A stretch of 64,000 bases of DNA from Halobacterium sp. R2-5 (GTDB taxonomy: Archaea; Halobacteriota; Halobacteria; Halobacteriales; Halobacteriaceae): positions 620,001 through 684,000 of the forward strand of contig NZ_JAANTH010000002.1 of the NCBI RefSeq assembly GCF_011734195.1, written 5' to 3'. Positions 12,197-56,580 of this stretch are shown piece after piece (positions within the stretch are counted from its first letter, which is position 1; each line of letters opens with the position of its first letter). A model generated the notes under the pieces. It did not search any database, was not told the origin of the DNA, and was given only the letters and a program-made list of their open reading frames with translations. The translations under genes were made by a program, and so were the position numbers.

Positions 12197-12244
12197 TTCT
12201 GTTCCGCGGGCGACGTAACGGCCTTCTGCTGTTCGTTCTCCTCG

Positions 12245-12487
12245 GAAGCCCCGAAGCTGTGGACTCGGGAGGCTCGCTGCGCGCTCCCTCCGGTCGCGTG
12301 CTTACTTCGCCTGCCTTCGTCCACAGCTTCGCCCCTTTCAGTCCGCCCGCTACCGGCTGACCGACCGGCTACGGGTGGACTGAAAGGGGCGGGCCGCTCG
12401 CGCTTGCGTGGTCGTCTCGGCGGCCGCTATCTGCGAGCGGAGCGAGCAGATATGCCGGCGAGCGACCGCGAGCGGCCCGGGGCTTTC
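12245..12487. repeat. Cloverleaf inverted-repeat element, copy A
   Basis: In this non-coding stretch I find a short outer stem (AAGCCCC at 12246-12252 with GGGGCTT at 12479-12485) and three consecutive hairpins. Left arm: 12252-12264 with 12319-12331 (13 bp perfect). Central: 12331-12344 with 12377-12390 (14 bp perfect; extends to 19 bp with one G-T pair). Right arm: 12390-12402 with 12467-12479 (13 bp), holding a nested hairpin near 12429-12451. The stems share boundary bases, so not all can form fully at once. A second copy with the same plan is at 40371-40607. It may be a mobile-type repeat or a structured RNA; nothing in it encodes a protein. Confidence 0.75.
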
Positions 12488-39710: not shown

Positions 39711-39796
39711 CCCGGATTCCCCCAAGTGGCCCTCAGCATCGTTCGCCGAGACGCCGACGACCCGGGAAAGCGTTACGGCGTCCGGCGACGGTGGAA

Positions 39797-39803
39797 TTAT
39801 ATT
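39797..39803 (+). promoter_or_regulatory. TATA-like box of GNAT gene
   Basis: TTATATT lies 24-30 bases before the GTG start at 39827, a strong TATA-like match in G+C-rich sequence. It supports the GTG and a leaderless transcript. Confidence 0.6.
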
Positions 39804-39826
39804 CGCTGGCCTGCTACCCCCTTCCA

Positions 39827-40306
39827 GTGAGTGTCACGGTCGACGAGCGCGTGGTGCCCCCGGGCAGCGACGACCACCTCGACGCTGCCTGGGAGCTGAA
39901 AGAGCGAATCCGCGACAGCGAGAGCCTCCTCAAGCAGCGGCGGGGCTTCTTCGCGAACGCCTACCGCCGCTCGTCGGTCTACTGCTTCCTCGACGGCGAC
40001 GACATGGTCGGGTTCGCCGCGGCGCGCTCGGACGGCTACATCCTCTTCCTCGCGGTCGCCCCCGAGTACCGCGGCGAGGGCTACGGCGAACGCCTCGTCG
40101 CCCGCGTCACCGAGGACGCCGGCAAAGCATCCTGTCACGCCCGCCAGAGCAACGACAGCGCCGTCGCGTTCTACGAACACCTCGGCTTCAGCGTCGAGCG
40201 CGAGATCGCGAACTACTACGAGGACGGCGAGGGCGCCTACTACCTCCGCCTCGGCGACCGCGCCCGAATTCGGGACCGGATTTCCGAGCTGTTGCGCGGT
40301 CGGTAG
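39827..40306 (+). CDS. GNAT-family N-acetyltransferase
   Basis: The 159-residue protein shows GNAT motifs: LFLAVAPEYRGEGYGERLVA (acetyl-CoA loop region RGEGYG), then NDSAVAFYEHLGFSVEREI, as in RimI-type enzymes. It starts VSVTVDERVVPPG at a GTG. It probably acetylates an amino-terminal or small-molecule amine; the substrate is unknown. It stands alone between archease (divergent) and the cloverleaf repeat B. Confidence 0.82.
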   Translation: MSVTVDERVVPPGSDDHLDAAWELKERIRDSESLLKQRRGFFANAYRRSSVYCFLDGDDMVGFAAARSDGYILFLAVAPEYRGEGYGERLVARVTEDAGKASCHARQSNDSAVAFYEHLGFSVEREIANYYEDGEGAYYLRLGDRARIRDRISELLRGR

Positions 40307-40370
40307 TACGCGGTTCTGACTGCGGAGTCTGGGTTTTGAGCAGTGACGACTTCGAGGATGTGAACACTTC

Positions 40371-40607
40371 GAAAGCCCCGGCGGGCTCGCTGCCTGCGGC
40401 TCGCTGCGCTGCGGTGCTTACTTCGCCTCGACTAGCGAGCCCGCCGCCCCTTTCAGTCCACCCGTGCTGGCTGACCAACCGGTAGCTGGATGGACTGAAA
40501 GGGGCGAGGCTGTAGACGAAGGCGCGCGACGTAAGCACCGCAGGAACGAGCAGAGCGAGTGACGAGGAGCACAGCGAGCGCACCGAGTCTACAGCCTCGA
40601 GGCTTTC
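40371..40607. repeat. Cloverleaf inverted-repeat element, copy B
   Basis: The same plan as copy A: outer stem GAAAGCC (40371-40377) with GGCTTTC (40601-40607); left arm 40379-40391 with 40434-40446 (13 bp perfect); central stem 40446-40460 with 40491-40505 (15 bp perfect); right arm 40505-40517 with 40587-40599 (13 bp perfect). The central stem is nearly identical to copy A. The left-arm stem sequence is unlike that of A, yet both pair perfectly. The right arm read in reverse resembles the left arm of A. It lies between the GNAT gene and priS. It encodes nothing recognisable. Confidence 0.75.
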
Positions 40608-40704
40608 CGGGGTATCGAAACCGACAGAGTACGTGATGCGGGACGTGTCGACGCGGTGCCGTTTCTAGGCCGAACTTACCACGAGCCACGAGAGAGACGA
40701 CACG

Positions 40705-40738: not shown

Positions 40739-41914
40739 ATGGAGGAACGGACCCGCGCGTATCTCCGGGGGCGGTTCGGGGACTTCTACCGCCGCTCGGA
40801 GGTCGAGCTCCCGCCGCGCGCCGACGACCGCGAGTGGGGGTACATTCCGTGGACGTCGGGGCCGGACACGACGATGGTCCGGCACAAGTCCACGCTCGAC
40901 CTGGGGAACACGTCGGCGTTCCTCGAACGGGAGCGACCCCGCCACGTCTACTTCTCGGCGGGGTTCTACGAGACGCCGGGTGCGGCGACGATGGAGCAGA
41001 AGAACTGGCAGGGGTCGGACCTCGTCTTCGACCTGGACGCCGACCACCTGCCGAGCGTGACGCTCGGCGAGGACACGTACGCGCAGATGCTCGCGAAGTG
41101 CAAGGACGCGCTCTACCGGCTGCTGGACTTCCTCGAACGGGACTTCGGGTTCGAGGACCTGACGGTGACGTTCTCCGGGGGCCGAGGGTACCACGTGCAC
41201 GTCCGGGACGACGGCGTCCACGACCTCGAACGCGAGCAGCGCCGGGAGATCGTGGACTACGTGCGCGGGAACGAACTCGACCTCGACTCGCTCGTTCGCG
41301 AGGAGACCGTCGAGGGGCTCGGGCTGAAGAATCCGACGAACAAGCGCGTGCTGCCCGCTGACGGCGGCTGGGGGCGGCGGGTGACCGAGCGCCTCGGAGC
41401 GTTCGCGGACGACCTTCTCGAACGCGGCGAGGACGACGCCGTCGAGTACCTCTCCGGGATGGACGGCGTCGGCGAGAAGTCCGCACGCGCCATCTACAAC
41501 GCCGTCGCGAACAACACGGAGGCGGTCAGGCGGGGGAACGTCGACGTGCACCCGGCGTTCCTCAAAGTCGCGCGGAAGCACGTCGAGGAGACCGTCGAGG
41601 CGGAGAACGCGCCCATCGACGAGCCCGTGACGACGGACACGAACCGCCTGATTCGGCTACCGGGGACGCTGCACGGCGGTAGCGGGCTGCGCGTGCGTCG
41701 GCTCACTCGGGAGCAGCTCGACGACTTCGACCCGCTCGCCGACGCCGTCCCCGAGACGTTCGTCGGCCACGACATCACCGTCGAAGTCGAGGGCGAGCAC
41801 ACGCTGGAGCTGCTCGGGGAAACGCTTACGGTACGACCGGGCGTCGTATCGGTCCCAGAGTACGCGGGCGTCTTCCTGATGGCCCGCGGGAACGCGGAGA
41901 AAGCCAAGCAATGA
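40739..41914 (+). CDS. priS: DNA primase small (catalytic) subunit
   Basis: The 391-residue protein has the archaeal/eukaryotic primase catalytic motif DLVFDLDADHLPS, then VTFSGGRGYHVHVRDDG, and ends in a C-terminal domain with TDTNRLIRLPGTLHGGSG. PriS makes RNA primers, working with PriL (not in the window). It is full length, with no intein. The next gene starts in a 4-base overlap (ATGA), so GINS is co-translated with PriS, as reported for archaeal replication genes. Confidence 0.95.
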   Translation: MEERTRAYLRGRFGDFYRRSEVELPPRADDREWGYIPWTSGPDTTMVRHKSTLDLGNTSAFLERERPRHVYFSAGFYETPGAATMEQKNWQGSDLVFDLDADHLPSVTLGEDTYAQMLAKCKDALYRLLDFLERDFGFEDLTVTFSGGRGYHVHVRDDGVHDLEREQRREIVDYVRGNELDLDSLVREETVEGLGLKNPTNKRVLPADGGWGRRVTERLGAFADDLLERGEDDAVEYLSGMDGVGEKSARAIYNAVANNTEAVRRGNVDVHPAFLKVARKHVEETVEAENAPIDEPVTTDTNRLIRLPGTLHGGSGLRVRRLTREQLDDFDPLADAVPETFVGHDITVEVEGEHTLELLGETLTVRPGVVSVPEYAGVFLMARGNAEKAKQ

Positions 41915-56495: not shown

Positions 56496-56580
56496 TGCGT
56501 GGGACCGGATTTGAACCGGCGAACCTCTACAGGACAGCGCCCTCAACGCTGCGCCTTTGACCTAGCTTGGCTACCCACGC
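56496..56580 (-). tRNA. tRNA-Leu (anticodon GAG)
   Basis: The complement folds as an 85-base class II tRNA: acceptor GCGTGGG/CCCACGC, D-arm GCC...GGC with GGTCAAA, anticodon arm CAGCG-TTGAGGG-CGCTG giving anticodon GAG (reads CUU/CUC), a 14-base variable arm and T-arm GCCGG-TTCAAAT-CCGGT, then discriminator A. CCA is not encoded. No intron. It is alone, opposite in direction to its neighbours. Confidence 0.95.

Follow-up and report, generated by a model that had tools for sequence, protein, structure and literature searches.

Copy B upstream of priS in Halobacterium sp. R2-5 is an inverted twin of a hairpin repeat widespread in haloarchaea and probably selected as a folded single strand

Two palindromic intergenic stretches, copy A and copy B, are found in the window, i.e., the 64,000 nucleotides of Halobacterium sp. 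R2-5 analysed here (contig NZ_JAANTH010000002.1, positions 620,001 to 684,000). The sequence-only reading had described copy B as a cloverleaf with nearly the same central stem as copy A and a left arm that differs wholly in sequence while remaining perfectly paired, and took this as covariation suggesting selection on, or copying of, structure. This raises the question of what kind of element copy B is, and whether its structure is what has been maintained. The features concerned are as follows (window positions).

12244 to 12487, no strand assigned: copy A, inverted twin, upstream of the S17e gene
12253-12264 with 12319-12330, and 12391-12402 with 12467-12478: stems of copy A
12332-12344 and 12377-12389: inner boxes of copy A
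39791-40306: acetyltransferase-like ORF before copy B, which from reading the ORF we take to be a GNAT
40371 to 40607, no strand assigned: copy B, an inverted twin made up of two hairpin units, intergenic, stems and fold checked
40371 to 40464, minus strand: left unit on its G-rich strand, 5' CGGGTGGACTGAAAGGGGC ... GGGGCTTTC 3', a conserved hairpin by folding
40371 to 40379, no strand assigned: outer box of the left unit, GAAAGCCCC, which is GGGGCTTTC on the G-rich strand
40380 to 40391, no strand assigned: outer half of the 12-bp stem of the left unit, GGCGGGCTCGCT
40413 to 40425, no strand assigned: conserved loop motif of the left unit, GGTGCTTACTTCG
40434 to 40445, no strand assigned: inner half of the left unit stem, AGCGAGCCCGCC
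40447 to 40459, plus strand: inner box and left half of the central stem, CCCCTTTCAGTCC
40487 to 40607, plus strand: right unit on its G-rich strand
40492 to 40504, plus strand: inner box and right half of the central stem, the 5' box of the right unit on the G-rich strand, GGACTGAAAGGGG
40506 to 40517, plus strand: 5' half of the 12-bp stem of the right unit, GAGGCTGTAGAC
40527 to 40539, plus strand: conserved loop motif of the right unit, CGACGTAAGCACC
40587 to 40598, plus strand: 3' half of the right unit stem, GTCTACAGCCTC
40599 to 40607, plus strand: outer box of the right unit, GAGGCTTTC, a variant of GGGGCTTTC
40739-41914: ORF beyond copy B, presumably the primase small subunit gene priS (named by reading the ORF)
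56496-56580, minus strand: tRNA-Leu (GAG) gene

All the stems described for copy B were found in place, with the left and the right arm each consisting of 12 perfect base pairs and the central stem pairing GCCCCTTTCAGTCCA with TGGACTGAAAGGGGC. Folded as RNA, the plus strand of copy B gives a closing stem with three arms, i.e., a cloverleaf, at -137.5 kcal/mol (z -7.68, none of 200 shuffles reaching this value), and the z value for copy A was -10.32. When DNA parameters are used instead, copy B folds best in another way, with the loops of both arms paired with each other (z -5.18). The box CCCCTTTCAGTCC occurs in the window at six sites when up to two mismatches are allowed, where 1.0 would be expected; the four sites with an exact match are the ends of the central stems of copies A and B.

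The cloverleaf is not the basic unit, since units with a single hairpin are found both in the genome of the window and in further families. Whole and partial copies were located by a genome search at some twenty places in the window genome, and units are dispersed in intergenic DNA as singles or as inverted twins. The unit is one hairpin of about 110 nt, which reads on one strand GAAAGCCCC, a 12-nt stem half, the loop, the complementary stem half, a G and CCCCTTTCAGTCC; the cloverleaf arises where two inverted units share a central palindrome. On the G-rich strand the base is made of the constant boxes GGGACTGAAAGGGGC and GGGGCTTTC, followed by a GAAAG/CTTTC helix that has an internal loop of the form GGG x GGG, a main stem of 12-13 bp whose sequence is nearly free while its pairing is kept, and above it an upper helix, a tandem G.A step and conserved loop segments. 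Units from four other genera have the same fold. Among 214 distinct candidates delimited by the boxes, 181 have at least 8 of 12 Watson-Crick pairs in one register, a level reached by 14.7% of controls in which halves were swapped between units; where two outer boxes were possible the one giving the longer stem was kept, a choice that the control did not have, and the gap is far too large to come from this cause. Pairing amounts to 82-97% at stem positions 1-12 and falls to 33% at position 13, and 126 of the 214 units combine at least 10 of 12 pairs with a length of 95-126 nt and inverted ends. Outside the unit, an outer helix between the flanks of singles showed no excess over swapped flanks (z -0.4). 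A chance palindrome was discarded on the box excess in the window, the stem pairing compared to swapped halves and the fold compared to shuffles.

The repeat is not peculiar to Halobacterium. A covariance model of the unit (R1), which matches the right unit of copy B at 40486-40607 with an E value of 2.2e-18, found it in 150 of the 195 genomes examined from the order (in 130 of the 157 good ones), with per-genome counts that are lower bounds, at most 18 candidates being scored in each genome. In a sample of the whole phylum 21 of 148 genomes matched, and all 21 belonged to the same order. An exact 19-mer was present in at least 120 stretches of named genomes, the 80 matches listed being haloarchaeal records except for one ‘uncultured archaeon’, and one genome (G031) has 69 occurrences of the 13-mer box by itself. 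Units are also carried by plasmids of several genera, and the genes next to them at four annotated plasmid loci had no family in common. Spread by viruses or phages was rejected, the exact 19-mer being absent from viral contigs and phages giving no match to the unit. The mean distance between stems within a genome was 5.2 of 12 positions. Haloparvum sedimenti (L084, L113, L117, L123, L142, L153) has homogenised stems, unlike other genomes: nearly all are alike, AGCCGGCTCGAC, with 22 identical pairs among nine stems.

The covariation test with further copies from related genomes, proposed by the sequence-only reading, was carried out as follows. We aligned 73 units on their G-rich strand, chosen by hand from the above 126. 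RNAalifold predicted 20 pairs, every one of them changed on both sides; with two additions made by hand, a C-G pair and the constant GAAAG/CTTTC helix, the model has 26 pairs, over which 413 cells were changed on both sides compared to 126 ± 11.5 after shuffling (none of 500 shuffles as high) and at most 94 when partners were slid. The paired percentage of the main stem is inflated, as this stem had served in choosing the units. The upper helix (columns 44-50/130-136) is independent of that choice, and there double-sided changes were detected in all six pairs, with 89% of cells paired. A further helix covaries as well (columns 71-117: CG 50, TA 15, GC 2; columns 59-120: CG 64, GC 6). At two adjacent columns, 66 units out of 73 have G.A and 63 have A.G, respectively. 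The aligned family shows covariation beyond shuffles, as would be expected of a structured non-coding RNA, in the helix independent of the selection as well.

Which strand folds can be approached through the imperfect pairs. In the main stems of 177 units with at least 9 of 12 pairs, the non-Watson-Crick cells read on the G-rich strand were 74 G.U, 14 A.C and 59 others. When only independent events were counted in each stem cluster, there were 56 G.U compared to 13 A.C, with 50 others (p 1.7e-7); transitions at conserved unpaired columns, taken as a control, showed no excess of this kind (44 vs 67). The bias comes from the named units from across the class (61 vs 5) and is weak in the genus of the window and its relatives alone (13 vs 9); in the upper helix it is absent (about 9 vs 10), and in the next one it reappears (about 21 vs 3). 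We take such a strand-specific excess of G.U as pointing to selection on a folded G-rich strand. Judged from these sequences that strand is most likely RNA, and folded single-stranded DNA, which could produce a similar wobble bias, is possible. The reading that we favour, and hold to be probable by a modest measure, is that copy B consists of two inverted units of a haloarchaeal hairpin repeat, about 110 nt long and found across the order, which has been selected as a folded G-rich single strand, most likely RNA. Sequence comparison itself supplies the structure, the covariation, the strand bias, the distribution and the arm swaps described next.

The left arms on which the sequence-only reading had built its case do not bear it out. 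The left arm of copy A (GAAGCTGTGGAC) is homologous to the right arm of copy B (GAGGCTGTAGAC), with 10 of 12 pairs identical and both differences compensated, and the right arm of copy A (GGGCCGCTCGCG) is nearest to the left arm of copy B (GGCGGGCTCGCT), with 8 of 12 identical. By this comparison the arms of copies A and B have swapped sides. What had looked like wholly different, still paired left arms are non-homologous arms and not compensatory change within one arm, so that the left-to-left comparison was dropped as covariation. Copying, the other half of that proposal, fared better, as entire arms are found again at other loci and have been inverted in place. Selection on, or copying of, structure thus stands on pairing that outlasts full turnover of the stem, on the G.U strand bias and on arms recopied or flipped, and has lost its left-arm example.

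Orthologous sites give the history of single units. Over 35 unit comparisons, which share loci and are not independent, the boxes were 97 and 94% identical, a conservation partly due to the boxes being the search key that defines the units, the stems 58% and the loops 62%. The long flanks were 88% identical, the near flanks 62 and 69%, and 94% of stem pairs were kept. The stem turns over faster than the neighbouring genes. At one locus followed in five genomes the unit has been kept between the same two genes and in the same orientation, with constant boxes and five different stems, and orthologous loci of different species and genera have retained their units. Compensation of a single pair can be followed at the S17e locus, where the stem half is GAGGCTGTGGAC in L220, GAAGCTGTGGAC in L006 and GAGGCTGTAGAC in L222. 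At three loci, S17e (L219/L006), priS (L206/L208) and a second locus (L060/L065), the arm has been inverted in place, i.e., identical arms are found on opposite sides while both flanks are at least 88% homologous. The one form in which recombination among copies is seen is arm exchange. The element is missing at the S17e site of G009, with a junction at TCGA-type homology, and only a right-end remnant is left at the priS site of G004; both sites look like deletions with short TCGA homology, no clean target duplication being apparent at them.

Whole-arm swaps and inversions of this kind, together with the homogenised stems of Haloparvum, are what would be expected of passive repeats of the REP/BIME type, whose pairing would be maintained through mutation and repair (palindrome template switching, gene conversion) with no selection on structure. 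Template switching is strand-symmetric, however, so that it would give no excess of G.U on one strand, and the loop segments and the G.A step are conserved across the order. We hold this explanation to be improbable. REP, BIME and REPIN sequences are dispersed intergenic palindromes, single or in inverted pairs, and mosaic. The units resemble them in being dispersed intergenic palindromes found as singles or inverted pairs, and differ in their greater length, conserved internal loops, hypervariable stem and the many carriers without a RAYT-type Y1 transposase.

The filled and the empty or deleted orthologous sites, the size of about 110 bp, the inverted ends and the tens of intergenic copies would also suit a mobile DNA element of the SMR, MITE or PATE type, with an enzyme recognising a single-stranded DNA hairpin and stem pairing and strand bias as a consequence. 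The nearest description of the repeat is that of the Haloquadratum SMR-A elements, compared by description: their report gives a length of about 110 bp, terminal repeats in inverted orientation, tens of copies and no target duplication, and calls their mobilisation enigmatic (PMC3119063). The units are of the same class in size, inverted ends (126 of 214 at 95-126 nt) and copy number as SMR-A in that report, which also describes ‘SwitchRepeats’, sites with different repeats or with one repeat in opposite orientations. It gives SMR copies of one type as commonly more than 95% identical, and their targets as near-terminal palindromes of PATE/IS605 elements (PMC3119063). The units, by contrast with what is described there, have hypervariable stems and long-lived intergenic loci, and fall short of 95% identity (stem distance 5.2 of 12, orthologous loops 62%). 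Against a DNA element stand the persistence of units at orthologous loci across species and genera, the two element-free sites, which resemble deletions and show no evident clean target duplication, and the many unit-rich genomes without Y1 transposase, among them that of the window. The Y1 transposase (PF01797) was found in 115 of the 195 genomes and is absent from G000 (the window genome), G008, G009, G027, G031 and G041, all rich in units. A longer carrier transposon was discarded, the longest shared flanks in a flank screen being orthologous loci. We regard the mobile DNA element as unlikely, though a serious candidate. PATEs are palindrome-associated transposable elements, one of which, in Halobacterium, is reported to be active as ncRNA (PMC10544981). 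The units are likewise haloarchaeal, non-coding and palindromic; they end in inverted GAAAGCCCC / GGGGCTTTC, whereas PATEs lack inverted ends and derive from IS605-type transposons, and, unlike PATE and IS200-IS605 elements, many of their carriers lack the Y1 transposase.

RNA-like structure combined with dispersal would also be found in the guide RNA of a TnpB-type transposon or in a retroelement spread by reverse transcriptase, explanations to which we give almost no credence. In 28 genomes chosen for high or zero unit counts, reverse transcriptase (PF00078) was found in none and TnpB in 26, with a presence that does not follow the units: G048 is unit-rich and has no TnpB, while G033 and G034 have 34-51 TnpB matches and no units. 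As agents of spread Y1 transposase, TnpB and reverse transcriptase were all set aside, no association with the units having been found for any of them in the genomes covered (195 for Y1 transposase, 28 for the other two).

The positions of copies A and B, upstream of S17e and priS respectively, together with the locus where five genomes keep the unit in the same orientation between the same two genes, would be compatible with a cis-acting RNA regulator of adjacent genes (a leader, a terminator or an mRNA-stability element). With a crude gene caller, the genes upstream of 100 single units were oriented 50:50 and those downstream 60:40, and the lack of a fixed orientation to the neighbouring genes argues against a simple role as leader or 3'-UTR. 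There is no gene family common to the neighbours at the four annotated plasmid loci, and the element has been lost at some orthologous sites. A regulator of this kind seems very improbable to us, even counting in its favour the absence of twins from convergent gaps. Crude gene calling placed none of 47 twin units between convergent genes, compared to 16 of 100 singles.

Is the repeat already known under another name? Neither the window nor 10 unit loci contained a match at the gathering score of any Rfam 15 family. All hits of a permissive scan of 40300-40700 lay below threshold; most were to miRNA models, with one to a CRISPR repeat and one to an sRNA model. The units share covarying helices and conserved internal loops with the structured RNAs of Rfam, from which this lack of a gathering-score match sets them apart. 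The literature searched, which leaves out most subscription journals, contained no description of the repeat and none of the box sequences. The attC sites of integrons are strand-specific hairpins read by structure, with a constant base, an unpaired step and a variable stem; the units are built in the same way and differ in that they follow no order of gene cassettes and keep no fixed orientation to genes (50:50 for 100 singles). This is a real and widespread structured repeat family that is apparently undescribed. Roughly three in four of the haloarchaeal genomes examined have it, often as tens of copies, and Rfam 15 has no entry for it. Its signature is unusual in joining constant boxes and inner loops to a stem that turns over fast and keeps its pairing, with wobbles mostly of the kind expected on one strand.

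If the repeat is selected as a folded G-rich strand, as we favour, the strand would be produced as RNA by neighbouring transcription, and a protein or RNP would read the boxes, the internal loops and the length of the stem, not its sequence. Over time single pairs change with compensation, often by way of G.U, and whole arms are exchanged between copies or inverted in place; copies may be spread and remodelled by recombination or by a mobilising enzyme. A bolder form, which we put forward only as a speculation and think rather doubtful, is an order-wide new class of mobile structured RNA elements, in which an enzyme would act on the folded RNA (or single-stranded DNA). This enzyme would recognise the G-rich boxes, the 12-bp length of the stem and the G3 x G3 loop, which at the high salt of these cells might be a quadruplex stabilised by potassium. 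Arm exchange would keep renewing the stem sequence, which would serve as a free barcode. In 48 of 63 units that had been found without using CCC, the inner box is followed by a CCC run, counts that are no more than suggestive of a quadruplex at this loop. If RNA, the repeat would be a large new archaeal RNA family; if single-stranded DNA, it would be a mobile system that reads hairpins and lacks the transposase expected of it. Cultivated haloarchaea allow a direct test of either reading, and the annotation of haloarchaeal intergenic DNA would change.

Further variants of the unit were seen. Some units have a double-hairpin insert after the CAGTCC box (GGAAGAC..GTCTTCC plus a second hairpin), ending in a second CAGTCC; it was detected in L222, L057, L077, L082 and at C1:677397 and C2:300136 of the window genome, i.e., in the genus of the window and in another family (L082). 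Two distant copies in the window genome (C2:738830-739250 and C2:822460-822900) have in common a long loop insert with nested hairpins, a resemblance that suggests recent copying between loops. At C2:826330-826500 of the same genome we found a deletion form, in which the left end of one unit is fused directly to the right end of a unit of another type.
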